From Cornus controversa (taxonomy: Eukaryota; Streptophyta; Magnoliopsida; Cornales; Cornaceae), in NCBI GenBank assembly GCA_026545225.1, contig CM048849.1, forward strand, positions 15,321,541 through 15,385,540: a stretch of 64,000 nucleotides of DNA. Direction: 5' to 3'. This document shows positions 4,143 through 58,797 of the stretch, piece by piece. Both the position numbers and the translations under genes were made by a program. The notes beneath the pieces were generated by a model. It ran no database searches, was not told the origin of the DNA, and saw only the letters and a program-made list of their open reading frames with translations. Position 1 is the stretch's first letter. Every line of letters starts with the position of its first letter.

Positions 4143-4765
4143 ACATGTAAGGATTACAAGGAGGCGTGTTAGGATTGCCAATACCTATTAAGGTATCTAA
4201 GGTTAGGGAGGCATGTAAGGATTGCTAGAGGGTATGTCAGGATTGCCAATACCTATTAAGATATCCAAGGATAGTATAGGTGGCATGTCAGGATTGCGCA
4301 GGTTTAATAGAAAACTTGCTTTTATGCCTTTGGTTTGAACTTAGAAATCTAAACTTGTGTGATAGGGGTTGAATGGGGACGGTACATAGGATGACTTTTA
4401 TTTTGGAGATATAAGATAGATAAGGAAATTATTTGAGTTAAAATAGATAAGGGAGGCATGTCTGGATTGCCAATACCTAATAAAGTATTTAAAGATTAAT
4501 TAGGGAGGCATGTCAAGATTGCCAATACCTAATAAAGTATTTAAAGATTAATTAGGGAGGCATGTCAGGATTGCCAATAAAGTAGTTAACATAGATAAGG
4601 GGTGCATGTCAAGATTGCCAATACCTAATAAGGTATTTAAGGTTAATAAGAGAGACATGTTTGGATTGTCAATTACATGGTGGGGTACTTGATATATATA
4701 TATAAGAGGCAGGTTAGGCTTATCAAATATTCATAAGGTTGTTTATTTAATAAAGTGTCTGGGCA
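4143..4765 (+). repeat. Tandem repeat of about 65 bp inside the LTR
   Basis: Degenerate copies of a unit built on GGCATGTCAGGATTGCCAAT followed by ACCTAATAAGGTAT. The second part can form a hairpin: six-base arms ATACCT and AGGTAT around a four-base loop. Equivalent repeats sit in the other LTRs of this family with different copy numbers. Confidence 0.85.
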
Positions 4766-5636: not shown

Positions 5637-6954
5637 ACTATTGGGGATATCGGGTTGAGTTCGAGAGAGAGACAAGCGTATGATTATTACTTTCATTTTG
5701 AATTATTAAGCATGATAAGTGTTTAATGCATCCCTATATATATATATATATGCATTGCTGTGAATGAACATGATGTATGTTGAATGATACGTGAAATGTT
5801 GTGACATGCATCCATGTAGGTCGTGTTGGGTCGTCACTTAGGTGGGTTGGAATATCTCTACTGAGCCGCAGTGGTGCTCACCCCCTTATTCTAAACTCTT
5901 TTACAGATAAAGCGCCGATGACGGATGGGACATGAGTGTCCAAGTGGGACTCTAGTAGTATTTTTGCTATCTCTTGGATGTTGTACATTTTGTGGTTATC
6001 CATGCCGGCTTGTGGCATGTGACTCTTTTTGAGTTGTGGTTATATTTTGGACAAATGTAACTATGATGTATGTATTGGATTATAAGCTTGTTGGGTATGA
6101 AAAGACAACAAATTAGTTTATGTAGTGCTCGTGGTAGCATTTAATTCATTTGATGATGTTTTCATTATAAATGGATTGTGGTTGTGAAAGAAAATAATTC
6201 ATAATTGAATCATGATTATGATTTTGAGTATGTGATTGATGTTGGTACCTTTTAATTATGTTATGGATCATGTATGAGAGGTTCTAGGGTGATAGAAGGT
6301 GGATTGGGCTCCAAATGGACCACGTATATGGTTGCTTGGAGTCCTGAGAAAGGCATTTCGATCATACGAAATGCCTATTTCGCACAATCGAAACCCCCAT
6401 TTCGATTGTGTGAAGGGGTGGTGAATTATGGTGATTTTTAGGGTCCAGACAAGGATAATTTCGCACAATCGAAACCCCCATTTCAATTGTGTGAAATATT
6501 GCAGGTTCAAGGTCCCGACCAGGAGAAATTTTCACACAATTTAACTTTTTTTCGCACAATTGAGATGCCAGTTTCGCACAATCGAAATCCCACTTTCGCA
6601 CAATCGAAGTTACTATTCAAAACATCTTTTCAAACTTCGATTCAATGTAATTTTTTCGTTTGAAATCGAAATTGAGTGTGGTTTTTTTTTCAAATTGAGT
6701 ATTTTTGGATTCTCTATCCAATGGTGTAGGTTTCAGCTTTGGATTCCAAACACATGAAGTGTTGAGTCTTGGAAGTGGGTGATTCATGAATGTGTAGACA
6801 AGTAAATCCCCATTAAGGTGATATGATTTGATGCAATGCTCATTGTGATTGCATGAGTGTGGTATAGATTATTCATGGGGAGTGAATGGGTTCAAAATCA
6901 GGATTCGGGTCCAGTCTGAGGGAGTCCCGGCGGTCTGAATTCCGGAGCATGACA
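5637..6954 (+). mobile_element. Chromovirus LTR fragment, second family, 3' part
   Basis: No host gene is seen. The stretch contains the block ACTGAGCCGCAGTGGTGCTC near 5858 and ends with GGCGGTCTGAATTCCGGAGC followed by ATGACA at 6954. The ends at 8419 and 14880 look alike. A cluster of short palindromes lies at 6350-6612. I read it as the 3' part of an LTR of the second family. The left edge is approximate. Confidence 0.5.
6350..6612. repeat. Palindromic word cluster (TTTCGCACAATCGAAA type)
   Basis: TTTCGCACAATCGAAA and its reverse complement recur about seven times with short spacers, often as a word, a run of C, then the inverted word (for example 6378-6413). The cluster lies about 340-600 bp before the LTR 3' end. 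Several small open frames here only read through the repeats. Confidence 0.85.
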
Positions 6955-7074
6955 AAATGTGCAAGCATGATAATTAGTATTATATTCCCTTTAATGGTAT
7001 GTGCACATTTAGCATGAGCATGATTGTGAAAATGTTCACGTATTACATATACATGGAGTGAGTATGCATGTGAA

Positions 7075-7275
7075 AGGGTTGTGGTAACTAGGTAGCCAAG
7101 AGTAGGTATCCGGGTATGACATGAGAAGTGGTTTTTGGTAATCGGGTAGCCAAGAGTCAGTATTCGGGAGTGAAATGTAAAAAGATTTGTAGGAACCGGA
7201 TGGCCAAGAGTCAGGATCCGGGTGAAATATAAAGGTTGTGGTCAGTTGGATTACCAAGAGTTGAGATCCGGACCA
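7075..7275 (+). repeat. Tandem repeat of about 54 bp, four copies
   Basis: Four degenerate copies marked by GCCAAGAG at about 7095, 7149 and 7203 and its variant at 7253. Each is followed by a GGATCCGGG-like box. The array lies inside the LTR fragment. Confidence 0.8.
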
Positions 7276-7929
7276 ATTGTTATCGTTGAGACTATGGGCA
7301 GCGAGTTAAGGTAGGAGCGATGGGATTCATGCGTGTGTGTAAGACACGGATAAGGTTTGAGTGTGTAGCACGATGCATATATTTATGGCATAAATGTTAG
7401 CATGACTAATTATATATGAATAGTGCTTAACGTGATAACATGATTATGTGTTATATGGTATTCACAAGACTTACGAATTTGTGTTTTTGACATTCCTACT
7501 GAGCGTATTGTAACTTATCCCATGAGTATTAACTCTTTTCAGGAAATAAAAAGGAAGTGATGGAGTCTTCCCAGCAGTGAGTTGGCATGGAGTGGAACCG
7601 GTTTCATTTAAAGACTCTTTATCCTTTATTTGAATGTATGTTCGAATTGTGGAATTTATGCATGTAGTGAACAAGTATAATACTTTTTATGTTGCGAGAA
7701 CACATTATAAATATGTTTATGATATCATACTTCACATTTATGTTTTGAGCATGGTGAATGTTAGGTGATGCGAATAGTGATTTTGCATTTATGTTCATTT
7801 TTACATGTATAAACTTGTTAGAATGGTTGTATTAATGAATTGGTAAAATGAGGAGTGTGTATGATACGAATGAGGACCAAAGTGTCATTTTGGACACTTA
7901 GAGAAAATCTGCAGAGAAACAGTGTTCGA

Positions 7930-8160
7930 GGGTTTTCGATTAATCGAAACCCCTGTTTCGATCAATCAAAAAGCTTCGGTTAAATAGGCTAAGTATCAAA
8001 AAATGTTCGATGGAAAGGTGGTTAATTCTAGTAGGTTGTTGATGGAACATCGATACAAGTTTGATTATGCGAAGTTCTGAATTGATCGAAGCCTCTATTT
8101 CGCACAATCAAAATGTGAGTCTCGATTAATCAAAGAAGGCAATTCGATTAATCGAAAGGT
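7930..8160. repeat. Palindromic word cluster (TTCGATTAATCGAA type)
   Basis: The perfect 14-base palindrome TTCGATTAATCGAA occurs at 7935-7948 and 8143-8156, with near-copies between them (TTCGATCAATCAAA, CTCGATTAATCAAA). It lies about 260-490 bp before the LTR end at 8419, the same relative place as the differently worded cluster at 6350-6612. Confidence 0.85.
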
Positions 8161-8419
8161 GCTTTGATTGGGCCTTTGACTTGTAATACCTATGTATACA
8201 CGTATACAAGGTAGGTTTGGTGATGATTAGGCTTCCGCTGATTTATGAGATGATGACTTAAATTAATTAGTCATGATGGTGTTCCAGATAGGAATAATGT
8301 GTGATAAATGGTAGTTTATCATATTTGTCTAGGTTATGGCATAACGATCGAGTGGTCATGACATTTCGCAACCTTCGGACCGGGGGAGTCTCGGCGGTCC
8401 GAATTTTGGCGCGTGACAA

Positions 8420-8971
8420 CTAATTGTTTACACTTCATAACATGCTAATTGTGGAATGAATTAGCATCGTGTTGTATAAGCATAGTTAGAGTTATATGAC
8501 TATTCATACTTGGTGTTGAGTTTTTTTTGTTGTGTATATAGCAAAATTCTGCCAAGAAGAGTGCAAGGTTGAGGCATTAATATCTCTCAAGAGCAAATAG
8601 ATGGGGCTCAATTTATGCGAGACATGGTAGATACCATCAGGCAAATCGGAAGGGAAACCCAATAAGAAGAAGTTCATTACAACCTAGGGTTGGATTGACC
8701 AAACCTTCAAACTCTTGGTTGCTCTAGCGATCGATGAGGATTTAAGGGTTGGTGTAGCAGCGCTTCATCTTCAAGGAAAAGCAGATAGATGGTGCTAGTT
8801 CATGATAATACCTATAATACTGAGATTATGGAGTTGGATACTTTCAAAGGACTTTTCTTTGATAAATTCTTCCCAGCAACAATGAAAGATCGGTTGAGGC
8901 AGGAGTTCATCGATCTCATACAAGGAGATGAGACCAAGTTTACTTCCTTGACTCGCTTTGCACCAGAGATG

Positions 8972-8974
<3 letters not shown>
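8420..8974 (+). mobile_element. Chromovirus gag remnant
   Basis: Downstream of the LTR end is a leader, then an N-terminal gag signature (Leu-Pro-Arg-Arg-Val-Gln-Gly, about 8550). Further on is a retrotransposon gag domain piece with the family pattern F-FF-K-FFPATMKDRLRQEFI and LTRFAPEMV, ending at 8970. It is a broken remnant with several breaks and no host function is expected. It abuts a TA microsatellite, beyond which an oppositely oriented element begins. Confidence 0.75.

Positions 8975-9026
<52 letters not shown>
8975..9026. repeat. (TA)n microsatellite at an element junction
   Basis: About 26 TA units separating a plus-strand gag remnant from LTR-derived sequence of a minus-strand chromovirus. 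The bases right of it (AAACATTTAATAAAACTACT) are repeated at 12388, also directly after a TA tract. Confidence 0.95.
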
Positions 9027-9028
<2 letters not shown>

Positions 9029-10167
9029 AACATTTAATAAAACTACTACACACTTATTTAAAATAACTAAAGTATTTAATATCACACAATTAACATTTAA
9101 ATTAAACATAAATAAACATATCTGAAATAAAAAGCTTTGGATATTTTGCCTTTATTTCATCCTCCCTTTCCCAAGTGGATTTCACCTCGTTATGGTGACT
9201 TCACTAGACACACACTAAAGGAATAGTCTTGGAATGAAGAATCTGGTTCCTACGGTCAAGAATACAGTAAGGTTGTTCCACATACGTTGCATCTAGCTGC
9301 AATTCAATCTTCCCAACTTCAATATGCTAATAAGTATCCTCATTCCTAAGAAATTTTTGCAACATACACATAAAAGACCTTATACATCCTGTGTATTGTG
9401 TCTGGTAATGCCAATATGTACGCTACCACCCCAACCCTATCAGTAATCATGAAAGGATCCACAAAATGAGGTGATAATTTCCCCCTTTTCCCTAACCGCA
9501 TCACCCCCTTCATGGGAGAGACATCAAGAAACATTTGTTCCCCCACTTTGAACTCTAAAACATAAGTTTGACAATCATCATAATTCTTCTGCCAACTCTG
9601 GGTAGTGCGCATACAATTTCTAATGAAAGTAACTTTCCCTTATGTATTCTTAATGAACTCCAGACCAAAAAAAATCATTTCTCACCAACTTGTATCCAAC
9701 AAATAGGAGACCGACATGGTCGTCCATACAAAGCCTCAAACGGTGTCATACAAATAGTCTTCTAATAAATATTGTTATAAGAAAACTCATAAAACGGAAG
9801 ATAAAACTCTCAATATCAAAGTCTACCAATATCTATGGTGACCTGCCGGCAACTTTTTCGTAAAATCGTACTAACTCCAAATGGTGTAGAAATGCTAAGA
9901 GAATGACTACAAAGCAGAGCCATTAATCCAGATAAAATAATAAAAGATCTAGACACAAAAGAGTGTGATGCACCATTATAAAAAAATAATTCAACCAAGT
10001 CTACCATGTATAGGAAACATACCCCCAATACCCCAATAACGAACTAGAAAATAGAGTAAATTTGAGTCCTATACTTAGGCTCTATTTATTAGAACATGCA
10101 ACGTGGAAGATATCATATGACCCTAAGGACCCGAAAACACTTAAACCTAGAATGCTCTGATCCCAAC
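9027..10167 (-). mobile_element. Internal remnant of a chromodomain Ty3/gypsy element
   Basis: Read on the minus strand from the LTR at 10168: a primer-binding-site-like stretch (about 10153-10166); a protease piece with NGASHSFVSRSF and an SISTPFG motif (about 9816-10028); integrase C-terminal sequence with MTPFEALYGRPCRSP, FKVGEQMFLDVSPMKGVMR and GKLSPHFVDPF (about 9346-9800); and a chromodomain tail with a TWEREDEIKAKYPKLF-like motif (about 9130-9230). The integrase-chromodomain order places it among plant chromoviruses of the Tekay/Del type. It is broken in many places and reduced to pieces. LTR-like sequence (9027-9122) lies at its 3' side. Confidence 0.8.
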
Positions 10168-10734: not shown

Positions 10735-11160
10735 ATCCTAACATACCGTATATATATTAGTGAGACTACTTATTAGCTAGCTCTCAATTTCGTATGGCAA
10801 TCCTGACATGCCGTGTATATATATTGGTGAGACTGCTTATTAGCTAGCTCTCAATTCCGTATGGCAATCCTCACATGCTGTTTATATATATTGGTGAGAC
10901 TGCTTATTAGCCAGCTCCCAATTTCGTATGACAATCCTGACATGCTGTGTATATATATTGGTGAGATTGCTTATTAGCTAGCTCCCAATTCTATATGGCA
11001 ATCCTGACATGCCGTCTATAAATATTGGTGAGACTGTTTATTAGCTAGCTTCCAATTTCATATGCCAATTCAGACATGCCGTGTATATATATTGGTGAGA
11101 GTGCTTATTAGCTAGCTTTCAATTCCATATAGAAATCCAGATATGCGAGAACACATACTA
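10735..11160. repeat. 67-bp tandem repeat, six copies
   Basis: Six copies of a unit with GGCAATCCTGACATGCCGTG, TATATATTGGTGAGACTGC and TTATTAGCTAGCTCTCAATT, a few percent diverged. The GGCAATCCTGACATGCC core is shared with the 69-bp repeats of the two solo LTRs at 26-34 kb. Confidence 0.9.
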
Positions 11161-12129
11161 AGTAATTACCTTATTAGGTATTAGGCAATCATGACATGCC
11201 TCCACAAATAATCCTTCCACAATATAACATATTTAAAAGTATGATTAGTAACATATAATGAAATATACCAATAATTCATAAGGGCAAATTAATTTAGACA
11301 AGTGAAAGGAGTCAAATCTATAAATAAAATAAGAATAAAAAATAAAATAAATTACTGTTCATCGACATTGTTCACAATACTGTTCACGGATACTTGATAA
11401 TTGAATGGGTTGCATAATCTGCTCTCTATCATAAATGTATTTATAATAAAGAAATCATAGTCCTAACAGTACAAGAAAACCTAAAAATAAAAAGAAACTA
11501 GCAGCACAAGAAAACCGCTAAAAAAAAAAAATTTCTCAAAAAATTCTAAAAAAACTAAATAAGAAACCTAGTAATTAAAAACTATTAAATATTAAATTTT
11601 AGCTAATTCTGAGTTCATTTGGTGCATGAACAAAATTTCTGAAATATTCAGTAGTCTTCCAATTCGTCGAAAAATTCTGGACATCAACACTGTTCACAGA
11701 AATTTAATGTAAATACATACAACACGATTTAATTCACTACATATAAATTCCATAAATTAAATCCGAGATTTTGGTCAGCATACATATCTCCAAAAACAAA
11801 ACCCTAGTTTCTCTCAATATATATATTAGAAACAAAACTCTAGTTTAACATAATACATTCATTCTTTATAAAAAAATAAAATAAAAACATATATACATAT
11901 AGATATGGTTTCAGAGGTGAAGAATTTATAAATTCAAAGGGGAAGAGAAGAAAAGTTACTTGCCTCTTCAAAAACAAAGGTAAAAATCATATAAACACAA
12001 ACCCCTTTGCCCAAAATCACAATCCTCTTCAATTCCTCTTCTCAAATCCTCCCTAGGGTTTCTATCTCCTTCTTTTCCTCTCTATCTCTCTCTCTAAAAA
12101 TATACGTATAATGAAATTTGTAGAAAACC

Positions 12130-14207: not shown

Positions 14208-14880
14208 TATTGATATAAATGCTTGTTGATTGAGGTTGAGAAGTGGTCATGGATGGAGTATGTGTGAAATCAGGGATTATAGTCTGAAACATTATGCGGA
14301 ATCATAATCAATGTTATGATTCATCGTAATATTACGCGGAATTGTAAGCTAGATTATAATTCATCGTAAAATGAGAAACTTGGGACATGAAAAACAAGTG
14401 TGATTACGCGGATCGTGCATGGACTCGCAATTGCACATAATCATAATTGAGATTACGCGAAATTGTAATGGAGAGTGCATAAAATCGTAGTCTCCACTAC
14501 GATTCAACGTAATGTGTGAGGGTAGACACCTATTTAGTTAGGATTACATTACAGAGTCACTTGTGGGACCCACCTATAAGGAACTTTTGAGACGTGTTTA
14601 TTTATTAGTACATGTGGAGACATTTCCGTGAGGTTGTGAGACCAATGCCTTAGGTTAATGATTGAGATGTGAGCTAGATTATAACCCAAGTGTTCTATAT
14701 AGGAACGTATGGTAGGCTATTAAAGCTTCTGCAAAAGTGATCTCAGTGGTCTGGATTAGAACCAAGGGTAACAGAATGGTGATTGTCACGGTTATCCAGG
14801 GACACAGAGACGATGACCGGGCAAGCTTGACCAAGCTTGGAATGGGGGCGTTCCGGTAACTCAGATTTTGAGGCATGACA
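14208..14880 (+). mobile_element. Chromovirus LTR 3' part, second family
   Basis: Ends in a GAGGCATGACA block at 14880 comparable to the LTR ends at 6954 and 8419, and carries a palindromic word cluster at about 14270-14530. No host gene. The small minus-strand frame near its end is not supported. Confidence 0.5.
14270..14530. repeat. Palindromic word cluster (ATTACGCGGAATCGTAAT type)
   Basis: Repeated imperfect dyads such as ATTATGCGGAATCATAATC, ATGATTCATCGTAATATTAC, ATTACGCGGAATTGTAA and TACGATTCAACGTAATG. They occupy the same position, about 350-610 bp before the LTR end, as the clusters at 6350 and 7930, but with a different word. Confidence 0.8.
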
Positions 14881-15427: not shown

Positions 15428-15910
15428 ACATCTCGTACTGGTGGATCCCTCATAAGAGTATAAGCATGATGCAATTCCTCAACAAGTGCACAACCTTGCC
15501 GTGCAATACGATCAATCGTAAGGTGAAATATGATCAATCGTAAATTACGATCTATCGGTAGGATGTATCAAAAGCTGCTGGTTTCCATTCTTCAAATTTT
15601 CATGGAGTTACGATCCATCGTAATGGGGATTACTATCAATCGTAATTTCTCAAACAAAAATCATGATTCTTCCATACTTGTCCATTTAATGTCCAACCCT
15701 CAATCTTTAACATGTACACATTCTCCTTGATCCTACACACATCTAATATGATCCATAGCATATGTATAGTGATAATTCCATAAACATATCATCATGGTGA
15801 ACTCATGTCCACCATACATACAATGAACCAAAATTGAATACGTAAGTCCAATCCTTAATACCAAGCATATGCTTAAACTAATCAACACATAATTAGAATA
15901 ATAAAAATAA
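14881..15910. other. Repeat mosaic without a gene
   Basis: No coding region is recognisable. The stretch contains GGGCCC-rich LTR-like sequence (about 15140-15320), a (TA)n tract at 15388-15425, and a palindromic word cluster at 15505-15645 built on TACGATCAATCGTAA. These suggest further pieces of the second chromovirus LTR family in reversed orientation. Confidence 0.6.
15505..15645. repeat. Palindromic word cluster (TACGATCAATCGTAA type)
   Basis: TACGATCAATCGTAAG, ATGATCAATCGTAAATTACG, TTACGATCCATCGTAATGG and CTATCAATCGTAAT follow each other within 140 bases. The arms TACGAT and ATCGTA are inverted, with two or three variable central bases. Confidence 0.85.
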
Positions 15911-24320: not shown

Positions 24321-24363
24321 TCCTAACGTTTAGCTTTCAACATTGTATGTATCTATATCCAAA

Positions 24364-24957
24364 ATGACAGAGAAATCAGTATGGAGCAACTCATCATCAC
24401 CGTCCGTAGCACCAAGTCCGACTGAGTTTGATCATAACCACTCCTCAGAAGTGAAGTTATTTGGTTTTCCGGTGACTGGCTGTGACAAAGCCGCCGTGAT
24501 AGTACAACCTGATTGTGAGGTCAGAAGATTTGAGTGCCAATATTGTCACCGAGAGTTCGCCAATTCTCAAGCACTAGGTGGCCATCAGAACGCACACAAG
24601 AAGGAACGGCAACGAGCAAAGCGGGCCCACTTCCAAACCGATCATCACCGTCGGTTCGGAATGACTGTCCCAATGATCAGTGCTCACGCAGGTCGGTCAG
24701 GACCCTTAATTTGCTCAGGAGGTTCCACAAGTAGTGGTGCATATGCTGCACGCTTCCGGTCACCGTCTGAATACTGTGTACATCCACCACAGGTATTATC
24801 ATCATCATCAGGGGTTGCACCTCTTAGATTTCCTGATCACTTTTGCATGGGACGGCCATATCAGATTCTTGTTGCGGGCCCAGATAGTGTGGAGTCCCCG
24901 AGATCACCGTTAATGGAAGAAGCAGATGATGGGGTGGACGTTGATCTCCATCTATGA
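24364..24957 (+). CDS. C2H2 zinc-finger transcription factor (ZFP5/6/8-GIS type)
   Basis: An intact single-exon gene of 197 residues. Residues 56-78 form one plant-type C2H2 finger, with C58, C61, H74 and H78 and the QALGGH signature at 69-74 that contacts DNA in this family. The linker after it is basic ([11 protein letters not shown]). Residues 30-36 (VKLFGFP) are the N-terminal motif found in the Arabidopsis ZFP5/ZFP6/ZFP8/GIS group, regulators of trichome and root-hair formation. The C-terminus, DVDLHL (192-197), is an EAR-type motif of the LxL class, which recruits TOPLESS co-repressors, so a nuclear repressor is likely. I chose the second in-frame ATG because it has AAA before it. The first, at 24343, would add seven residues. 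Subgroup membership is by motif; the exact orthologue and target genes are not known. Confidence 0.93.
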
Positions 24958-26064: not shown

Positions 26065-27346
26065 AGATTCTGACGCTGGACAAAATAGTAATTATTCTGT
26101 AAGCTAGTGGCAACAGGTAATTCACAGAAAAGAATACAAGAAAATCTCCAAAAAACTCAGAGAAAAGCCTCTGATATTCAATTCAATATTCAAAATCAAA
26201 GTTAACCTCAAATCAGCCCACAAGTCGGACTATATAGCTAAAAAATCGTAAATATCGGAATCTTACCAAAATAGCAAAATCCCAATAATTACGCCAAAAT
26301 GAAATACGAAATAAAAGAAGTAAACTGTCAAAAATTTGGCCTAAATCGAGTTCAGAATCATTGCTTAAACGACAAAAGAAAATATTACTATAAATGGAAA
26401 AAAAAACTAAAAATGGGAATTCAAAAGGAAAAATAGCGGATTTTGGCGTCAAAAAAATATGCACTGAAATACCCCCCAAAAAATTTCGCACATGAGGTGG
26501 CCAGTCTCATACACAAAACCTGGAAGATACATACAACTAGTAGCAACAAGCATAGAATATAAAAGATATAATGAACAATTTTCTAAAAGCAGAAAAGAAA
26601 GTTCCTCTGAATTAAAATAACTGTTAACTAAACAAGTATATGTCCGGTAATACAATTTGGAAGTCCTGTAACCCAAGGACCCCTTAACCAAAATGAACCA
26701 AAGTTTTTAATTCTAAAATTAATACCAACAATCAAAGTCTCAAAAGGTCATAGTATGACTCTTGAAGAAGACAAGTTCCTACCCTGTAACTGATGAGATG
26801 AGACGTCTGCTACAACTAAACCCTAAAACTCTATCCTCGCGGTGGAACCTGTCTGAAACCTGAAATATCAACAAAGTGGGTTAAACCCACGAGCAAGTCC
26901 TATCTACTACATCCCAATCAGAGAACCAATATACATACCCTTAATATATGGGACACAAAATAAATTCAGAGATTTAACATACAAGTTATTCTTTTATCCA
27001 ATTTCATGTTTCTAAAATAACAGTCAATATTTATAATATTTCACCCAAACCCTTATTATGAAAAAGAGAACACATTCCTTAAGTTCAGCAGAAATAAGCA
27101 TAACATGAAATACTATCAAGTTTAAGCAATCCCAACATGTCACCATTTTATCCTTTGATACCTTAATAGGTATAAGTATATACATACTGGTCATTCCCTA
27201 CCTAGTTCATGTTTTCAGAAATCAAAATCATCTTATACGTTATCCCAACGAACCCTTATCATCAACAATGAATACCTTCTTTAAGTTCAAAGTAAAGAAA
27301 CATATGCATGCATTTTATTAAATCTCGACAATCATGACAAAGCAAA

Positions 27347-27552
27347 TATAATGTATAGATACCTTATTAGGTATGGGCGATCCTGACACGCCGGGCAATC
27401 CTGACATGTCAAATAAAATGTATAGATACCTTATTAGGTATGGGCGATCCTGACACGCCGGGCAATCCTTACATGCCAAAATAAAATGCATAGATACCTT
27501 ATTAGGTATGAGCGATCCTGACACGCCGGGCAATCCTTACATGCCAAAATAA
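27347..27552. repeat. 69-bp tandem repeat, three copies
   Basis: Three near-identical copies with ATACCTTATTAGGTATGGGC, GATCCTGACACGCC and GGGCAATCCTTACATGCC. ATACCT and AGGTAT form an inverted pair around TATT. The solo LTR at 30034-33629 has eight copies of the same unit. Confidence 0.92.
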
Positions 27553-30033: not shown

Positions 30034-33000
30034 TGAAATACCCTCCAGAAAATTTCACGCATGAGGTGGCCAAGCTCATACACAAAACTTGAGGGATATT
30101 AACAACTGATAGTAAACAAGCATAGAATACAATAACAAAAGAAAAAGAATTATAAATGCTGAAAGGAAAGTCTAACTGAAATGAATAATCATGTTAAATA
30201 ATATTGTATTATTCTGATTGCTACAACTTGGAAGTCCGGTAACCCACGGACCCCTTAACCAAACAAAAAAACATAAAAGTAAAACTTTATGAACAGATTT
30301 AAGTCCCTACACTAAAGTATGGTGAAGAATGGATGATCGTCACGCTCTACAAACTCCATGCACAAATCTCTAGGTAGAAACTGTCTGGAACCTGAAATAT
30401 CAACAAAGTGGGTTAAACCCACGAGCAAATTCTCTCTACTACAACCCAATCAGAGAATCGGTAAACATACCCTCTATATGAGGACAGTAAAGACATATAG
30501 ATATAATTATACCATTTAGTCATTAAATCTCCTATCTTAAAAGTAACTAGAACTATGTTCTGAACTAACCCATCCATTATCACAATATAGATAAAACAAA
30601 CTTCTAAATTCAAACCATAGACAATCCTAACATGTCTTCTTCTATATATTCTACAAATGCCTTACAAGGTATTAGGCAAACCTATCCTGCCTCCACCAAT
30701 AATCCTTTCCCAAGACAACAAATTTATGTTTATATACAATTAAAGATAACCCACCAACTCATAAATATATATACCCAATTAACCCTATAATCCAAGAATA
30801 GAGCCGCCCCACACATTACACTAACACATAAGTTATCTTAATGCAAGTGCAGACTAGTTTTAAGTTTATACAAGAAATAATCATAACATGCTCGAATATA
30901 TACCGAGAACCGTTCTTACTAGATATTAGGCAATCCTGACATGCTCTAAATAAAATATAAAAATACCATATTAGGTGTTTGGCAATCCCGACACGCCTTG
31001 ACAATCCCAACATGCCAAATATAATGCATAGATACCTTATTAGGTATTAGGCGATCCTGACACACCTTGGCAATCCCAACATGCCAAATATAATGCATAG
31101 ATACCTTATTAGGTATTAGGCGATCCTGACACGCCTTGGCAATCCCAACATGCCAAATATAATGCATAGATACTTTATTAGGTATTAGGCGATCCTGACA
31201 CGCCTTAGCAATCCCAACATGCCAAATATAATGCATAGATACCTTATTAGGTATGGGCGATCCTGACACGCCAAAATAAAATGCATAGATACCTTATTAG
31301 GTATGGGCGATCCTAACACGCCGGACAATCCTTACATGCCAAAATAAAATGCATAGATACCTTATTAGGTATGGGCGATCCTGACACGCCGGGCAATCCT
31401 TACATGCCAAAATAAAATGCATAGATGCCTTATTAGGTATGGGCGATCCTGACACACCGAGCAATCCTTACATGCCAAATAAAATGTATAGATGCATTCC
31501 CAATATGAAACATAAAATAAACAAGGTGCATTATGATCTTAATTTGCACAAACAAAGTAATTCAAATAATCCGACATGAAATTATCACCATAAGATAAAT
31601 CGTTCACAAGTAAGCTATAATCAAGTATTTAATGGGCATTTATATCCTTAAAGAAAAATACATTCAAGTAAATCAAATAACACAATTTAACCACTTTAGA
31701 ATCAAATACCCAATCCAACCCCTAATGCACTCAAGTCTATGAGGGAGTCTAAACCAAACTCTTATCTAGGATTCTGGGCCTATTCTACTTCTAAGAATCC
31801 TATTAAATCATTCTGGAAATTTTCTAGAATTTAAAAAAAATATTTTCAAAAGGTGAAAACCCAACTTTTAGATACTTTAAAAATTCATTGAACACTAAGG
31901 GAAGCTTCTTTCAAGATGAAAATTTAAACCCAAGTTTATTTAACCTCCAGAAAGTTACCACAAAAATTTGGGAATTTTTGGAACTACAAAAGTATTTTCA
32001 AAAATTACAGAAAGTGAAAAACCCAACTTTTGGACACTTTAAAAATCAATTGAACAACAAGAGAAAATCATTTTGAGTTAAAAATTTAAATCCAAGTGTA
32101 TTTAGCCTCCAAAAAGTTTCAGTAAAAATTTTGGAAATTTTGAAACTTTATAATTATTTTCTAAAATTAAAGAAGATGAAAAATCCAGTTTTTAGACACT
32201 TTAAAAATTAATTTAAAGACAATGGTAAATCATTTCGACATGAAATTTAAACCCCAAGCTCCTTAAGCTCATAGAAAGTTGACATAAAAATTTGGGAATT
32301 TTTAGAATTATAAAAGTATTTTTTAAAAAAAGATTTTCTTAATTTTTAAGTTTTTTCAAAAATTTCAAAAATTCAAAACAAATAATAAAATAATTCGGAG
32401 TGGGCCCATATCGGACCCAGAGGTGGGCCCCCGAGAGTGGGCCCCAAAAATACTTTTCTGGCCACCGGCGCCGGAGGCATGTGCCCCCACGCGCCGGCGG
32501 ACATTTGGCCCCTTTTTTTTTTTTTTTCTTTCTTTCTTCTTCCTCACCTGAAGCTTCAGCGGCCAACAATGGAGGCCAAACTTCCCGATCACTTTTCGAT
32601 CACTTCCGAGCACCGAATCACGCATATGAATATACTATTGAACTCGTATCGATCTAAGCTACGTATTGGTACCAAAATCATCCCCTCTCACGGACTAAAT
32701 CAAAAACGCCCAATTTCAAGTTTCGAAAATCTAAAATTTTAAACTCAATTTCCCGTCAATCTACCCAATGGTTCATAACGAAACTTTCAAGGATTGTTCT
32801 AGGAAGTAAGATCTACCTTTTAATCGGAACAAAAACGTTCAAAAATGATGAATACAGTAAACCCAATTTCATGTTAATATATATATATACCCGCCTATAC
32901 AGTCATATATATATATGTATATACATATGCAAAAATATCCTAAAACAGTACCAAAACTCCAAAATCTTCATGTTTAATTCACAGAATTATTTCTAGCATG

Positions 33001-37329: not shown

Positions 37330-37916
37330 AAAATATAACAAGCAAGTATCATGTGATATGTGAACTCTTTCGTAATTTCATTTTAAAAAGAAAAGAAAAG
37401 AGAGAGATTGGAACACCTAAAAATGCCGGTGAAGGGCTAATGTATATCAACTCTCATAGTTAATTAGTGAGATCGTAATTTTATGTCCTGTGATCAATAC
37501 TATAAAGAAACAAGATAATGTTGGGTTGATATTTGAAACTTTGAAATTGAAACAAGTGCAATTGAAGAAAATTTTGTTCAATAAATTTATGCGGCCAATT
37601 ATATTCAATAAAGTTCAAACTTAACAAATCTAATCTTTTTATGTCAGTCACCTTACTAACACGTTATGTCAAGGTTTTCATGCTACGGAATTTAAATATA
37701 TGCGTGTATGAATTTTGTTAAATTAATATATATTAGAAAAACGAAAAATAGTAATATACCTTATAGGGAGAGGGTGTGGACAACCTAAAATTTCTCATGT
37801 CCCAATTTGGAGCTTAATTTTCATTTTGGGAAAATGATAGGTCTTATCTGTTCAACATCAATTAATCAAGCCAGGTAATTTTTATTCTCCTCTCCCACGT
37901 ATCACCATAAAAACCC

Positions 37917-37924
37917 TTATATAA
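37917..37924 (+). promoter_or_regulatory. TATA box of the DUF3511 gene
   Basis: TTATATAA lies 90-97 bases before the start codon and about 25 bases before a long CT-rich tract. A CCCACGTATC element with an ACGT core lies 20 bases upstream. Position and sequence fit a plant core promoter. Confidence 0.65.
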
Positions 37925-37946
37925 CCTTGCAATATGGTTCTACCAC

Positions 37947-37956
37947 CTCTCTCTCC

Positions 37957-37987
<31 letters not shown>
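37947..37987 (+). repeat. CT-rich leader tract
   Basis: About 40 bases of CTCTCT just downstream of the TATA box and 27 bases before the ATG, probably in the 5' untranslated region. CT-rich leaders near the transcription start (Y patches) are common in plant promoters. Confidence 0.8.
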
Positions 37988-38013
37988 ATCCATACAAGTT
38001 GGAGGGGAGGGAG

Positions 38014-38340
38014 ATGGAGGAACACCAGCCCACTCACTGGTCCTACACCGCCGGAAACGGGTTCGAACCAGTTAAGAACACAAAAACCCATGGTCCCGAC
38101 CCAGTTCATCCCATCCCCGAACCACCACGTTCCGGTGGACTTTCAGCTTGGACAATGTCATCTTCTCCACCGACATACACGGTGTCTTCAAGGCGGTCCA
38201 GTGGTGATTCGGAGATGAAGAGAAGGAAGAGGGTGGCCATATACAAGGCCTACGCCGTCGAAGGCAAAGTCAAGGCTTCTCTACGTAGCAGCTTTCGTTG
38301 GGTCAAGAACAAGTACTCCAAGCTCTTGCATCGATATTAA
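38014..38340 (+). CDS. DUF3511 domain protein
   Basis: An intact 108-residue protein of unknown function. The C-terminal part, about residues 64-108, matches the plant-specific DUF3511 family as I know it: a basic KRRKRVA start, then YKAYAVEGKVKASLRSSFRW and VKNKYSKL ending within a few residues of the stop. The first 60 residues are rich in Pro, Ser, Thr and His and look disordered. No signal peptide or membrane segment is visible. The length is typical of the family. I chose the ATG at 38014 because it follows the TATA box and CT-rich leader at a normal distance; an upstream in-frame ATG at 37940 or earlier would translate the CT tract. Nothing in the surroundings suggests a pathway. Its basic, aromatic C-terminus could bind nucleic acid or protein, but this is a guess. 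Confidence 0.9.
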   Translation: MEEHQPTHWSYTAGNGFEPVKNTKTHGPDPVHPIPEPPRSGGLSAWTMSSSPPTYTVSSRRSSGDSEMKRRKRVAIYKAYAVEGKVKASLRSSFRWVKNKYSKLLHRY

Positions 38341-40719: not shown

Positions 40720-43700
40720 TATTTTGGCATGCCTGGTGGGACCTGAAAGTGCTGAAAAATTGAGAATATGCCACCTAAGCTAAGGTCCACATGGAACATA
40801 GCAACTGGCGAGGATGAGCAAGATGAAGACATCTCTCAGCCTTTAGGAGGCCCCACAGCCAACCTGTCAGATTTGGCAATCTTAAGGGATGTTATACAAA
40901 TATACAAATCAACGAGTTTTAGACCAGCATAGGTTGACTGGATGAGAAGATTACCCATAAAGGGTTTTTATACTAATGATTATATGGATGAAGTTTTAAA
41001 ACAATCGATCATCTATAACAGACCAATCATTTATACCTCCATCACCCAAGATTCGACTTATCAGCTGAATGCTCAGCAGGCTGACCAAAAACTGAAAGGT
41101 ATTGCCTTTGCCTCAACCTTCTGCACCAAGTAACCTGCCATCTAGTAGCTTTTAGCCTGGTGAAGTAGAAAATCAGTTATCAACCGAAACCACAAACAGA
41201 CGGCTGCCCGAGCAGCAGCTAGTACATTCTTATAATAACTCCATAGGTCCAGTCAACCTCGGAGATGACCCCAACAGGTGAAGAAGACAAGATCCCCTGA
41301 TTGCACCTGCACTCGGGGGGGCATGTAGAACACAATCGGCCACCTAGGTGGAAAGAACATGACCAACAAATAAATCCAAATGTTCTTGAAAACCAATTTG
41401 AGGATATCTATCAACCTTTAGGTTTAAGAAGTACTAATCGACCTATCTTTAGGAAACCTTATCCTGAATAATATGATTTAGCTGAATATCCGACTAGATA
41501 TAAGATCCCTAACTTCGCTACATTTAGTAGAGAGAGAAACCAATCAACACTAGAACACATCGGCCACTTCACAATCCAATGTGGAGAGGCTGGTGCTAAC
41601 CACATGTGGAAATCAAGATTATTCCCTACTTCTTTAACTGGGATAGCTTTTACTTGGTATTCTAACTTAAGGCCAAATTCTGTGGTGAATTAGTAACAAA
41701 TGGAAGAGTTATTTCACACTCAGTTTTATCGTCTGGAACCGAAGGCTACGTTAGCTTATCTTTCGAGGCTAAGTCAATTGCCTGGGGAGATGGTCGAGAC
41801 TTTCATAGCAAGGTTTAGGAGGGCCCGACTAAAGTGTTGAGTGATCTTTCCTGAAACAGAATATGCGAAGTTAGCCCTAAATGGTTTAGATATTGAGCAC
41901 AGGAAGAGATTTGAGGGCATAGATTTCTATAATATATTTGAGTTGGCTGAAAGGGCTATTCGATATGAATCAATCCTCAATGAGGAAAAAGAAAGAAAAA
42001 TTCCATTAAAGGGGACTTATTATAAATATCCCAGTTATGAGATTTCTTTTGGCAGAGATTAATGAGGATCTCGAGGCATATCTGGCCGAGGTCCACATTA
42101 AGAAGCCGTACATTTGTGAAAGCCTAATAAGAGTCAAATCAGCTACGAGTGGTTCTCACTCTACTTCATCATTGGCTAGTTCAACCAAAAAGAGGTTGGC
42201 TGATATAGGAAAATTTTACTCGTTTGAACTTTCTATGATTGATAAGATCTTCAATCATCTATTGGTTGATAAATATATCACACTGCCCAAAGGACAGAAG
42301 ATCCCATCGGCCACTAAGTTAAAGGGAAAAGAATATTGCAAGTGTCATAACTATCAGACACATAGTACTAACGATTGCATGGTGTTTTGTAATATTGTGC
42401 AGAAAGCAATCGACGAGGGTACCTTAACATTTTTTAACAAACAAATGGATGTTATGGGGGTCGACAGCAACCCTTTTCCCTATAATCGTTTCTAGTAATG
42501 TGATCAACCTTGCACCAAAAGCTGAAGACCGATAATCAGAGGTAGATGACAGAGCACTACAAGATTCTTCAAGTAACAAAATAATAGAAGGATTGGAGAA
42601 AAAATTACGAGAGGCTCAACTAGTGCTTATTGAAAATGGATGTTATCTAAATTGTAAAACTCTTGGGAATTATGGTGACGAAGGTATGGGACGAAGGAAT
42701 GGGACTCAAGGGGCAAGGTACACGAAAGAGTGTCCATTAGAGGATCATATTCCCTCAAGCTCAGCCAGATCCAACGAATACAAATTAGTTGGTCTTCCAA
42801 AGGATTAAACCAAAAGAAGAAATCACCATGTGCATAGACAGAGCAATGTTTGATAGGATGCATCCCGCTCATAATAATCCACCAAGATTTAAAAAGGGAT
42901 TACCACAATAGTCAATGATGTGGGTTAAAAAGGAAAACGTTCCACATACACCAAAAATGATAAAATCACATGTGGTCGCCCATCACCGATGGACAAAAGT
43001 GACTCATCCCAAATTTCCTAAAAATATGGTACCAAAAAGTGCTCTCACTCGTGCTTAGAAGCAAAGAATGCAAAGGAAAAGAGCTGAACTAAGAAGGAGA
43101 TAGGCCGACGGGCAAGTAATGTTGGCTGACGGCCGTAGTCAGAGATCTACATGAGACGAGTCAATAGATATATCTATAACCTTTGACATAGAAGAATCTT
43201 CCCAGGATGGGGACCAGTCAGATCAAAATCTAAAATATATGGCAAAGTATAAAATCAGGTTCGAGAATTTCCCAGAGAAAGTCATGTGCAATATGACATT
43301 CGTTTTACCAACCATTTTTAGGGAAAGCCTGACCAACTGTGTGTCGTGACCGATCATATAGAGCTTGAGAATGATCACATGGTTTGAGAAATAAAGCCAA
43401 AAGAGGTATTAACTACTAAGTCGTCAGTTTCTAAGGAGGGTCCTCATCAGTTGATAGGGTGGTATTTGAAAGACCACCACTGGCCAAGACTCAACAACTG
43501 AGGCTTTTGTACATTAAAGTGTGGGTAGAAGGCTAACTAGTCAATCGAGTATTGGTCAATAATGGATCTGTGGTAAATGACATTCCATCAACCACAATGA
43601 AGTCTTTGGAAAAAAACATGGAAGATGTGAACCCTACGAATGTTGCAATCAGCAGATTCAATGGTGGATCTACAAACACTAAAGGAATACTCCCTTTAGA

Positions 43701-46700
43701 AGTCACTATTGGTGGGTGATCTTCATTCACTACTTTCTTTATTATTGAATCCACAAAGGCCTATAACCTGTTGTTGGGCCATGATTGGATTCACCCTAAT
43801 ATGTGCATTCCATCATCTCTCCATCAAATGTTGATTCTCTGGGATGGAGATGAGGTCAAAATAATATAGGCTGATAACAATCCTTTCGTGACTAAAGTGT
43901 ATGCTGCTGAAGCTACTCTTTATTATGAAGTTTGTGTTCTGATTAAGTTTGTTGGCACGGACAAGATGGGTCGACCTACATCAACTATAATCAGAAGAAG
44001 ACTGGTGGCTTCAGAAGTGAAAGAGTTGTTACATGAAATATGTCTGCTGATGCTAGAGCTAAATCGGCCTAGCTCAGATTCAAAAAAATCAATTAATGGT
44101 GACAGAAAAATCCAATAGAGAAGAGAAAAAAAGGCAGGCCTTTAGGGCCACCTATGCTCGGCTAAAAGCATACTTAGTGGAGAAGAGAATTGCCAAAGTC
44201 AAACAATTATACCCTAAATTATCAACCAATATGGCTGAAGTGATCAAGTTTGATAGTGAAAAATTAGACGCAATACAATTGGCAGATTTAGAATCAGCCC
44301 CAACACAATTAGATGATCTCAAAGCAGAGGTACAAGACCCTTTGTTGAAAGTAAATTTAGGAACAATTGATGACCCTCAACCTACATATGTTAGTGATCT
44401 TTTGGAGCCTATGTACTAGGCTGAAATGATCAAGCTATTGGAAGAGTTCAAAGATTTTTTTGCATGGAACTATGAAGAGATGTTGGGTTTTTCAAGAAAG
44501 TTAGTATAACACAATCTGCTAATCTGAGAAGGGTATAAACCTTACAAATAGCCGCCTAGAAGGATGTCTCAAGAAATGGTATCAAAGGTTAAAGAAGAGA
44601 TAGAGATTCCTTAAGGCAGGCTTTATCTGAACAGCCAAGTACGTAGAATGGATATCCAACATGGTGCCTGTCATCAAGAAAAATAGAAAGTTAAGGGTGT
44701 GCGTCGATTTTAGAAATTTGAATCTAGCCACCCCAAAGAATGAATATCCTATACCAGTGGCCGATCAATTGATAGATTTAGCAGCCAAGAACGAGATCAT
44801 GTCTTTTATGGATGGACATTCAGGCTACAACCAGATATATATAGTCGAGGGATATATTGCAAAGATGGCTTTTAGATGCCCTAGGTCGATTGTCACGTCT
44901 GAATGGTTGTCATGCCTTTTGGGTTGAAGAATGTTGGGGCCACTTACCAGAGGGCAATGAATACCATATTTCATGATATGATCAGCAAGTTCATGGAAGT
45001 TTATATAGATGATGTGGTAGTAAAATCGTCAGCCATGAGGTAGCACTTGCTACATCTTAAAATCACCTTCGAAAGGATGTAGGCCTATAAGTTGAAGATG
45101 AATCCCATTAAATGTGCTTTTGGAGTTTTGGTTGAAAACTTCTTGCGTTTTTTGGTACACTAACGAGGTATTGAGGTCGACCAAAATAAAACCAAGGTGA
45201 TCATGATTGCCAGGGCACCCAATAATAAAAAATAACTCCAACGATTCATCAGCCAAATAAATTTCCTGAGATGATTCATCTCAAATTATGCCAAGAAAAT
45301 TCAGACCTTTTCTCCTCTGTTGAAGGTAAAATCTCAAGAGGAATTCATATGAGACGAGAAACATCAGCATGCTTTCGAGAGGATAAAGGAATATCTAACC
45401 AGTCCACCTGTTGTGATGCCTTCAAGAAAGAAGTGGCCGATGAAACTTTATTTATCGGTAGTTGAGGAGTCGATTAGAAGCATGTTAGCACAAGATAATC
45501 AGTTGGAAAATGAGAAAGCTATCTACTAATTTAAGTAAGGTTTTATCCTCGATCGAGTGTAGTTATACACCGATTGAGAATCTGTGCTTAGCTTTGTACT
45601 TCCCTGATATGAAATTGAGGATATATATGCTACTAACATTGGTCTATGTGATCCGTCAGACCAACCTCATCAAATACATGCTATCGAGGCCTTTGATCAC
45701 TAGCCAAATAGGCAAATGGTCATTGGCCTGGATGGAATTCAACTTTGTCTATATCCCACAAAAATTGGTCAAGGGTAGAGCATTGGTCGAGTTCCTAGCT
45801 GATCACCCATCAACTGACTTCGACTCAAGTATTTCGGATGAGTTGGAATTTGCTGCCTTATTCATGAATCTTTGGAAATTAATGTTTGATGGCTCCAATA
45901 CCAATGATAAAGCTAGGGCAGGATTAATGATCATTTCTTCAAATGTTCTAATAATCAAGTAGAGTACGAGGTGGTCATTTTTGGCTTAGAAATTTTGTTA
46001 GAAATGTTTGTGAAAGATATGCACATCATGGGAGATTCGAATCTTGTCCTCAGCCAGATATCAGAGGACTTTCTATATGTAGCTTGGTAGTTGAGGCCAT
46101 TTCACTCATTGGCTTCTCAATTAGTGGACCAATTTGATATCGTTAAATTAGAGTATCGACTAAGAGAGTTCAAAAAGGAGGCGAATGATCTAGCACAGAT
46201 AGCTTCAAGGGTCATGGTCCTGGAGGGGTTGGCCGAGAGGCTAATATCACGGAGCCTCCCATCAGCCATGGCAAGAAATTCAACTGTGGCCGATGCATTT
46301 TTAGTTGACATTGACACATTAGATAATGACAATTGGAGATACCCTCTTATCGAGTTTCTAAAAATCCCTAATCGGCCCATTGATAGAAAGATCAGGAGAA
46401 AGGTTGTAAGGTCTTTGTTACTGGTCGACAAGCTCTATAAGAAAAGTGCAGAGGATGGTTTATTGCTCCAGTGCATCAACAAGGTAGACTCTCTAAAAGT
46501 GATGGCGGATGTCCACGAAGGCACTTGCGGGGCTCATCAATTCAAAATAAAAATGCGTTGGTTGATTAGAAGATACAAGTATCATTGGCTCATAATCTTA
46601 AAGGATTGTATAGAGTATACTAAAGGCTATAATTCATGCCAGAAACATGGGCCGATTCAATGGGTCATTGCCAGGGAAATGCAATTGAATATCAAGACGT

Positions 46701-47849
46701 GGCCATTTAGAGGGTGGGCCATGGATCTGATTGGAAAAATTAACCCATTGTCATTGGGTGGTCACCATTGGATTACTATAGCCACATATTATTTTACCAA
46801 GTGGATAGAGACTATGGCCTATCGATCAGTGGACTAATGGGTAGTGATCAATTTCATCAAAAAACATATCTTCCATCACTTTGGTCTGCCTGAGTCAATT
46901 GTAGCTGACAACGGAACTGTGTTTAGGGTTGTCGAGATACTGGTCTAGGGAGAAGAAATGAAGGTTAAAATGGTAATATTGATGCATTGTTATGCCTAAA
47001 GTAACGGACAGGCTGAGGCTTCAAACAAAGTGCTCATTATAATTATTAAAAAAATGATCGACGAGAAGCCAAAGTTATGGCACGAGTCATTATCAGAAGC
47101 CCTTTGGGCTATAGGAATTCTAAAAGGACAAGTAAAGTTATCTCTCCATATCTGCTAACATACATGCATGATGTCATTCTTCTTATGGAATTGAATGTGC
47201 ATTCGACCAGGGTTTATTTACAATAGAATTTACAATTGACCGATTATAATCTCATTTTGTTAATCGAGCTAGAGGATTTGGATGAGGTACGCCTAGATGC
47301 TTTGGATCACATCAAAGTTCACAATTAGAAGGTGATGAGGGCCTATAACAAAAGAGTTAAGCTGAAATGATTTGCTGAGGGTGACCTAGTCTGGAAAGTT
47401 ATCTTGCTGATTGGGAAACATTATAGAGCTTACGGTAAGTGCTCTCCAAATTGGGATGGCCCATACTTGGTTCATCAAATTATTAGTAGAGGGGCATACA
47501 GGTTGAGGGATTTAATAGATAATTGTACCCCAGGCCAATTAATGGCATCTATCTAAAGGAATATTGGCCAACCATATTTGAACAATTGGAAGAGAAGTTT
47601 GATCAGACCACTCTGCCTACCTAGGTGGAGTAAGTTTGTGGCATTCCTGAAATAAATAAATGCGTAGTATAGGATCAGGGTTTCCCTATTTCTTTTCTTT
47701 GTTCTTCTTTATTTCTTTTTATCCTTGGTTATAGTTTAAGTTTGTTCTCTCTTGATAATTTAAAGCATGATGTCACAAGTCATTTTATAAATGTTAGCTC
47801 TAAACCCAAAATTCACAAAACTACAATGTTTTTCCTAAAAATGGCCTTA

Positions 47850-49165: not shown

Positions 49166-50724
49166 TCTTACCATCTAAACATATTGGTAGACACTTTCCT
49201 ATCTATCTATATCCATAGTATAAGGTAACATCTTGACTAACTATGTTGATCATTCACAGTGACACATCCCTATGACTAGGGATCGTCCACACTTGAAAAC
49301 ATTCCCTCACTAATTCTTTACCCGTCATCACCCAGATGAAACAACTCAAGTTCAAACCTCTGCCCAAGTTTACCAATCCTCAAAATTAGGATTTTCAAGT
49401 GGTGACTACATGCCACTACAAGTTATGCGACGCATAATGGAGCATTTATGTATATTACACAGTCACATAAATTATGCTCACTATACCACATATAATACAC
49501 TACACATAGCATATAAAAATTAACATGCTTTATCAAATGCAACACACAATACATGATACGATATATCATGTACTCAAATGAATCAAGACCCAACCCACGA
49601 GCTAAAACTCATAAATATACCTCATTGGAGTAGAAGAAAACTGTATAGGAAGTCACTAAGATTTCGTCCCTTTTCGTGCACCCTGCCTCTGAGGGCAATC
49701 ATGCCTAGCATGTCTAAGCTGGTTACAATGGAAGCAAATCATTTGTGCCTGAAGGGATTTCATAAACAAGGAAATCAACAATGCCATTGGTAATGGTGGT
49801 AGTATTACCCCAATGTTAGACTAGCTCCCAAAAGAGTGTGTAAAAAAGTATTGAGAACTTGTCTCACATTGTGTACTCCTCCTCCGATGACAAATGAACC
49901 TATATAGCCAGGTTGATGACAATGGTAACAAGTCTGGCATTCCCTTGGTGCCGACTGTCTCCTTGGGCTCTTAGACCTATAGCAGCCTAGTTGATCGCAG
50001 TGATAGCATAACATGTCTGATTGGGAAGATTCTGTAGGTAAATGGGTCATTGGTACCAATCGTCCCCACTGTTGTTCTTGAGAACATGTAACATTCTCCC
50101 TTTGTCTCTTCTTAGGGTGTCCACTCATTTACAATGGACTCACTAGTTGCGATCCCGTCGTAACACCCATCACCCTTGTAAGTTCTTACAGGGCTGTAAC
50201 CACGTCCCAAATAACCTGAACTCCATCAATTGTCTTTTGTTGAATAGAGGGTACTTTGTTATGATCCTTCTCTGATGTTATCTTGCTACAAAGATAATAA
50301 GGAGACACTGAAGAACAAGGTATACAATAATTGACCAATCAACTCTCACCATGCTTACGCAACACTATGCTAAATCGTTCTATAATTAGCATGTTATTCC
50401 AAACACGTAAACATCAAATTATGTTCCACATAGACATGTATAGACCTTAAGTTTACATTTTAACCTTAAGTACATACGTGGTTCCAACCTAGTCATCGTC
50501 TATAAGAAATCAAATCTAAAGTTCAAACGACTACCAACTATCACGCATCTCCAAGCTAATGTGTAATTAAACCCTCACCCTTCATCCCTAAGTATTCAAA
50601 CCTAGCGCTCTAATACTAAGTTCCTATGCCCTGATTTCTAATACCCAAAAATGGGGGTGATTGTATTACACATCATCACCTCACATCAACTACCTCAATA
50701 TGATATCATGCTCTGATACCAAGT
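49166..50724 (-). mobile_element. Chromovirus gag and leader remnants
   Basis: In minus-strand reading from the LTR at 50725: a primer-binding site TTGGTATCAGAGC (50710-50722); a leader whose AACATGCTAATT block matches the leader at about 8442; and gag pieces with CCHC zinc knuckles (CYHCDQLGCYRSKSP near 50000 and CYHCHQPGYIG near 49900; another knuckle, CFHCNQLRHARHDCP, near 49715). The far left part (49166-49640) has no recognisable coding sequence. Broken in many places. Confidence 0.7.
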
Positions 50725-51089
50725 TGTCACACCCAATTTTCAAGTCACCGGAGACTCTGTCTCTGAGCTTGATTCCTGAGAGTAAACCCATTCATTAAAC
50801 CCTAATGAACCATCATCACTTTTAATTTCTATGGAAGCTTAGTCACGTACACACATGTATATGTTCACAACTCAACATCAACTAATCCCAATGCACCCCA
50901 CACTTAACCTCACATACATGTCCATACACATCTAAACTGTCAACCTTCTCATAGATTACGATACATCATAATGATGATTATAATGCATCATAAGCTACGA
51001 TACATCATGATGTCATGCGAAATGAGCTATTTTCTTACCTAATTTTTCTACACTTTATGATACATCGTCCTTGGAACTTCAATGCATCA
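50725..51089 (-). mobile_element. Chromovirus LTR end with palindromic words
   Basis: Starts TGTCACACCC right after the reversed primer-binding site, so this is the 3' end of a minus-strand 5' LTR of the second family. A word cluster lies at 50950-51089 with TACGATACATCATAATG, ATGCATCATAAGC and TACGATACATCATGATG. The LTR is interrupted at 51090 by another LTR start in plus orientation. Confidence 0.65.
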
Positions 51090-58444: not shown

Positions 58445-58797
58445 TTGGCGGGCTGTGCTCCTGTGGGGTTAGTTGATAATGTTCTAGGGATTAATTCATC
58501 CCGCCTTTTTCATTAAAGGCCCTCTGAAGTGGTGTGCCTCTATGGGGTTGTTTGACTATGTTCTCGAAATTAATTCATCCCGCCTTTTTCATTAAAGGCC
58601 CTCTATTCGAGGTGTACTCCTGTAGGATTGTTTGACAATGTCCTCAGAATTAATTCATCCCGCCATTTTCATTAAAGGCCCTCTGTTAGAGTTGTGCCCC
58701 TATGGGGTTGTTTGACAATGTTCTTAGAATTAATTCATCCCACCTTTTTCATTAAAGGCCCTCTGTTAGAGGTGTGCCCCTATGGGGTTGTTTGTTC
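58445..58797 (-). repeat. ~80-bp tandem repeat, four to five copies
   Basis: Units marked by TTAATTCATCCCGCC at 58491, 58570, 58650 and 58730, exactly 79-80 bases apart, each followed by TTTTTCATTAAAGGCCCTCT, with a partial fifth unit. It lies just downstream of the integrase tail of the minus-strand Tat element. Tandem repeats in the 3' untranslated part are a known feature of Tat/Ogre elements. Confidence 0.92.

Follow-up and report, generated by a model that had tools for sequence, protein, structure and literature searches.

Arrays of a 16-bp palindromic word in five LTRs of Cornus controversa: putative binding sites for a dimeric protein

The LTRs and their neighbourhood

The window, a 64,000-nucleotide stretch of the Cornus controversa genome (assembly GCA_026545225.1, contig CM048849.1, positions 15,321,541 to 15,385,540), carries clusters of short palindromes in five LTRs, designated here A to E. 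Cluster A (6356..6650, plus strand) holds nine kept words, most of which read TTTCG-CACAAT-CGAAA, forward or reversed. Cluster B (7934..8157, plus) has six with mixed centres, and cluster C (14292..14512, plus) seven, of a TTACG-CGGAAT-CGTAA type and an ATTCAT type. Cluster D (15506..15645, minus) contains five words, TTACG-ATCNAT-CGTAA, and cluster E (50956..51070, minus) four, TTACG-ATACAT-CATAA. Age and decay are apparent in all five LTRs, and some pieces are truncated. LTR 3′ ends lie on the plus strand at 6947..6954 in A (GCATGACA), 8411..8418 in B (GCGTGACA) and 14873..14880 in C (GCATGACA again), and on the minus strand at 50725..50732 in E; none was found for D, and neither LTR 5′ ends nor start sites were found for the clusters. 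The kept words are situated 304-598 bp before the 3′ end in A, 261-484 bp in B, 368-588 bp in C and 231-345 bp in E. A sequence-only reading of this DNA had proposed a similar location in each LTR, and the overall range of 231-598 bp in these four agrees with it.

The LTR orientation adopted in that reading is also correct. In E, 3 nt beyond the LTR 3′ end, lies a primer binding site (50710..50721, minus), an exact match to the 12-base query that we take to be the tRNA-Met complement. Downstream of B, a gag-like reading-frame piece (8789..9034, plus) matches PF03732 with an E-value of 0.0036 and 17.9 bits against a curated cut-off of 24.1, and this family presumably points to Ty3. Pieces resembling CCHC zinc knuckles lie downstream of E (49659..50128, minus; PF00098, E 0.11 and 0.73, below the cut-off). 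The reversed orientation, which the TGTCA-type ends would fit equally well, was rejected for E and B on the primer site and the gag-like pieces found there. The orientation of D is taken from a 153-column match with E. The sub-threshold gag-like matches suggest that the host element is probably of the Ty3 type; the tRNA-Met primer site at E does not separate Ty1/copia from Ty3, and no integrase, such as the chromodomain-bearing one of the chromovirus family named in the sequence-only reading, could be linked to any of the five LTRs among the 15 reading-frame pieces searched. Relatives of these LTRs outside the window were sought with a primer-site pattern, which returned no stretches in viral contigs and four in genome contigs, all of them with bacterial titles.

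Several other features share the window. A compact element remnant at 9349-10165 (minus) combines a once-mismatched primer site at 10165 (minus) with a protease piece (RVP_2, 1.6e-10) and an integrase piece (SH3_Tf2-1, 1.2e-14); by order and strand, both pieces belong to this separate element. Another Ty3-like element occupies 42010-46834 (plus), with weak RVT_1 and Integrase_H2C2 matches below the cut-off. There are two likely host genes, encoding a C2H2 zinc-finger protein (24334-24954, plus; PF13912) and a DUF3511 protein (37879-38337, plus; PF12023, 5.6e-23). Long inverted repeats at 34453-34738/35574-35859 (81% complementary) and 18588-18781/19204-19397 (83% complementary) are possibly MITE-like or foldback elements. 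In E (51452-51740, plus) and in C (13420-13250, minus) a TATA-like stretch and a CT-rich, leader-like one lie on the strand opposite to the presumed LTR sense, and could represent an antisense promoter.

Repeated palindromes are found elsewhere in the window as well. A second LTR group carries the 16-bp palindrome ATACCT-N4-AGGTAT, in arrays whose copies are mostly separated by 67-72 bp, at 41-128, 4181-4636, 11166-11181, 27158-27509 and 30657-31440. It comprises 21 words with at most two mismatches, 13 of them exact, and unlike the first group it uses the same word in most copies. At 10748-11149 a 67-bp minisatellite of this group has the palindrome replaced by sequence with TTATTAGCTAGCT. 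A further repeated palindrome, CCTTTTTCATTAAAGG, occurs three times in an 80-bp tandem array at 58504-58758.

Words, spacing and array growth

Direct reading identifies the same unit in all five clusters, a 16-bp near-palindrome of the form TT(T/A)CG-N6-CG(A/T)AA. The clusters reported in the sequence-only reading are thus present at all five places, with a count excess in three of them. Words scoring at least 8 of 10 on the common consensus number nine in A, four in B, six in C, five in D and one in E, against means of 0.87, 0.68, 0.53, 0.32 and 0.12 and maxima of 5, 4, 3, 3 and 2 in 1000 dinucleotide shuffles of each. Since B only equals its own shuffle maximum and E falls below it, the count alone backs A, C and D; clusters B and E rest instead on spacing and word sharing. 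The 31 words analysed were kept by eye from 49 scored rows; four of the 18 dropped rows score 7 (6513, 8040, 15558 and 15582). Because the consensus was drawn from these same words, consensus-word counts and between-cluster identities are inflated by selection, an inflation from which the spacing and 16-mer sharing tests, not being consensus-dependent in that way, are free. A consensus-free count of 16-bp windows with five complementary outer pairs gives 13.8 per kb in the clusters versus 1.65 per kb outside, with 15 of the 119 such windows falling inside clusters and none in E. Five-pair windows of 14 bp (8.3 versus 1.5) and 18 bp (11.0 versus 1.6) are enriched too, and those of 13, 15, 17 and 19 bp are near background in the clusters. 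A stricter de novo grouping recovered only A of the five clusters, together with other arrays in the window.

The words fall into two classes. A and B carry TTTCG…CGAAA, and C, D and E carry TTACG…CGTAA; at positions 3 and 14, T.A is found in 14 of the 15 A and B words, and A.T in 14 of the 16 from C, D and E. The centres are mostly CACAAT in A; ATTAAT, ATCAAT, CACAAT and ATTATG in B; of the CGGAAT and ATTCAT types in C; ATCAAT, ATCTAT and ATCCAT in D; and ATACAT and ATGCAT in E. The B word at 8098 is an A word with one base changed. Word identity between clusters is 0.46-0.72 versus a background of 0.32, a figure raised by the origin of the consensus. In the consensus-free test, six of the ten cluster pairs share more 16-mers than any of 100 shuffles: A-B 297 (shuffle maximum 43), C-D 116 (22), D-E 100 (20), C-E 99 (49), B-D 56 (28) and A-C 54 (40). 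The remaining pairs do not exceed their maximum in 100 shuffles (B-C 50 against 55, A-D 33 against 54, A-E 8 against 48 and B-E 11 against 17). The proposal that each copy has a different word is contradicted by this sharing and by the presence of two classes only.

It had also been stated that the LTR sequence around the clusters stays related, and for most pairs the reverse was found. Only four of 25 flank pairs score above their 20 shuffles (upstream of B with downstream of D, downstream of C with upstream of E, and downstream of D with both flanks of E); the upstream flanks of C and D were left out of this comparison. Outside the clusters A and B match over just 35 bp at the LTR end, at 83% identity. 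Cluster words are common to more pairs than flanks are, and thus the words have been kept where their surroundings mostly have not; the exception is C and E, which align at 65% over 552 columns.

The words are also set at a fixed distance, a feature absent from the earlier description. Among 35 words scoring at least 7 in the clusters, 14 pairs start exactly 22 bp apart. Across 2000 runs that scattered as many words at random over these intervals, the mean was 0.88 pairs and the highest count 5, and no lag of any length exceeded 7 pairs. Raising the threshold to 8 leaves 25 words and ten such pairs, where the null averages 0.49 and peaks at 4. Beyond the clusters, the 63 words found at score 8 include no pair at 22 bp, and the 524 words found at score 7 include eight, which resembles the counts at lags 21 (five) and 23 (seven), so there is no peak. 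Every cluster holds at least one pair at 22 bp. The steps are 6356/6378/6400, 6459/6481 and 6550/6572/6594 in A (plus); 7934/7956 and 8076/8098/8120/8142 in B (plus), where 8076 is a weak word; 14292/14314, 14332/14354 and 14431/14453 in C (plus); 15506/15528 and 15608/15630 in D (minus); and 50956/50978 in E (minus). Fifteen pairs listed by hand, including the dropped word 8076, are better described as inverted in seven cases and as direct in six, with two ties. If nothing but the dyad and its spacing counted, neither orientation should be preferred, as is the case here. A pattern of two words had no matches in viral contigs.

Tandem units are present in three of the clusters. TRF, run on A to D, reports units of 22 bp × 2.7 in A (6550-6608), 40 bp × 2.0 in C (14291-14369) and 22 bp × 2.0 in D (15501-15543), and none in B. 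One 38-bp pair with an identical spacer occurs twice in A, at 6378 and 6459. Word identity within clusters is 0.80 in A, 0.78 in B, 0.74 in C and 0.82 in D, and spacer agreement is 0.55, 0.22, 0.39 and 0.50, respectively. As the spacers of A are fairly alike, part of its 22-bp register reflects descent by duplication and not constraint. Homogeneity within clusters, as claimed earlier, is supported, in the form of local tandem units; a single word per copy is not, since B mixes four centres.

The two arms of the words had been described as changing together within a cluster. Over the 31 words, 116 of 155 outer-arm cells pair. When right arms are re-dealt among all words, 102.6 ± 4.0 cells pair and only 6 of 5000 deals reach 116, whereas re-dealing inside clusters gives 118.1 ± 2.7, with 4123 of 5000 deals reaching the observed value. 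Arm co-variation thus exists only between clusters, at position 3/14, and the earlier claim does not hold inside them. The change from T.A to A.T between the classes may have been a single event. Without co-variation inside clusters, the present-day copies bear no sign of selection on symmetry. As raw tallies, both CpGs are kept in 11 of the 31 words, one has become TG or CA in 14, both have been lost in this way in three, and three show other changes.

What the arrays may do

We give about an even chance to the reading in which the clusters are arrays of sites to which a DNA-binding protein would attach as a dimer, acting on these LTRs. In favour are the 22-bp register, words that agree better than their spacers, the mixed orientation of paired words and the tandem units; on the other side stand the share of the register that stems from duplication, the lack of arm co-variation inside clusters, the RNA folding described below and the degraded state of the LTRs. 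A symmetric binding site was among the options named in the sequence-only reading, and it is the one retained as best. The site would be the 16-bp dyad, in which two TT(T/A)CG half-sites face each other across 6 bp, and the protein could be encoded by the host or by the element. The DNA helix makes one turn in 10.5 bp. A step of 22 bp is close to two turns and would place neighbouring dimers on one face of the DNA. We infer an effect of such binding on transcription or silencing, and an order of events in which units of 22 or 38-40 bp are duplicated in tandem on the spot, enlarging the array, and the copies decay after insertion, often through loss of one CpG. Duplication of units would also explain why one word dominates a cluster.

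The same arrays, if transcribed, could form RNA hairpins from which small RNAs for silencing are made, or which are of use to the element's own RNA. The folding data are in part consistent with this: cluster RNAs fold better than shuffles, so that an RNA role or a small-RNA consequence is possible, with z-scores of -6.60 (A), -4.68 (B), -4.45 (C), -2.85 (D) and -3.84 (E) against -0.48 to -3.07 in seven flank controls, and one 38-mer pair taken from A reaches -19.8 kcal/mol around a 6-nt loop. In maize, small RNAs of Sireviruses are in excess at palindrome clusters (PMC10760457 and PMC5311732, both citing Bousios 2016). However, D lies inside the control range, four words folded singly give weak structures (-1.3 to -3.3 kcal/mol), direct and inverted arrangements are about equally frequent among the 22-bp pairs, and the clusters contain no compensatory change. 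A small-RNA source would moreover be a cost to the element, which explains the presence of the arrays poorly and may make small RNAs a consequence, and hairpins are rather unlikely as the main explanation. A functionless minisatellite, in which slippage and unequal exchange copied a palindrome that had arisen by chance, is unlikely too and slightly the more doubtful. It would account for the tandem units of A, C and D and for arms and CpGs that decay freely inside clusters, but it does not predict that five LTRs with mostly unmatched flanks (4 of 25 flank pairs above their shuffles) should have one dyad plan and the 22-bp spacing in common, nor that spacers in B should have diverged (0.22) next to words that have not (0.78).

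Two further readings turn on the difference between word classes. In one, the arrays would be targets of a transposon-encoded anti-silencing factor, with word and protein changing together, in the manner of the VANC motifs of VANDAL elements, which are tandem in noncoding parts, differ between relatives and co-evolve (PMC5735166, PMC10398659). Two symmetric word classes would fit two protein specificities. Such a factor is very improbable: the 15 reading-frame pieces searched yielded no candidate gene, and the motifs of VANC21 are arrayed in one orientation and not described as palindromic in the available text. The view favoured in the sequence-only reading, that whole words are replaced as a unit, or are under pressure to diverge from one copy to the next, is the least probable and is given hardly any weight. 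The one symmetric difference at position 3/14, which splits A and B from C, D and E, is in its favour; C, D and E nevertheless keep nearly one word, as A and B do in part, B mixes words, and with six cluster pairs sharing words there is no excess difference to explain. An insertion preference for palindromes (PMC6911290) was discarded as well; in the available text it is a weak effect at insertion sites, which makes no arrays.

Comparison with known systems

Binding-site arrays of this kind can be set beside three known systems. The CArG boxes of MADS proteins, CC(A/T)6GG, likewise form a dyad of two half-sites across 6 bp. None of the 31 kept words has the CC and GG, the half-sites here ending in CG, and many centres hold G or C in place of the A/T-only centre, so a CArG box was rejected.

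VANC motifs are the closest case, in the available text, of motif arrays differing between related elements. As in the LTRs studied here, short motifs are multiplied in tandem in noncoding transposon parts and differ between relatives, and copies of a motif change together within a repeat (PMC5735166, PMC10398659). Unlike here, the elements are DNA transposons with a 9-base motif in one orientation and an element-encoded protein. By analogy, the TTTCG and TTACG spellings on the 22-bp lattice might track a protein that binds them, for instance a factor for anti-silencing or chromatin, which split into two specificities and so provided a Ty3-type address system; this is improbable.

The sequence-only reading knew of no named class for such clusters, yet palindromic repeated motifs in LTRs were described by Bousios et al. 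in 2010 for 13 Sireviruses (Ty1/copia) and called Sirevirus-specific (PMC2829016). According to the available text, these motifs (RM boxes) have one consensus per element, shared by OPIE-2 and PREM-2 (Table 3), a CGG-CCG core in 12 of the 13 elements and at least eight copies each; their place is ahead of the TATA box, within the LTR's upper half, and a cis-regulatory role is suggested (PMC2829016). The arrays described here are likewise short palindromic words repeated in an LTR. They differ in their TTWCG/CGWAA core, CGG being found only in the CGGAAT centre of C, in the 22-bp register, apparently in their place near the LTR 3′ end and in their probably Ty3-type host. Their copies number 9, 6, 7, 5 and 4 in A to E, in degraded LTRs, versus at least eight in Sireviruses. 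Because the core differs and the place appears to, the arrays are not filed as members of the Sirevirus motifs; they most likely work in a similar manner.

The kind of array is therefore already known from Sireviruses, and the 22-bp regularity is unreported within the literature searched. No palindromic arrays in Ty3 or chromovirus LTRs are reported in titles or abstract openings among the matches listed, which is a weak negative, and six exact word strings do not occur in the papers searched. Should the pattern prove general across the genome, arrays of palindromic motifs would extend beyond the Sireviruses, for which they were called specific (PMC2829016), and the 22-bp lattice would offer a testable handle on the protein that would read them. 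Such arrays are thought to be a meeting point of plant retrotransposon activation and small-RNA silencing (PMC10760457, PMC5311732).
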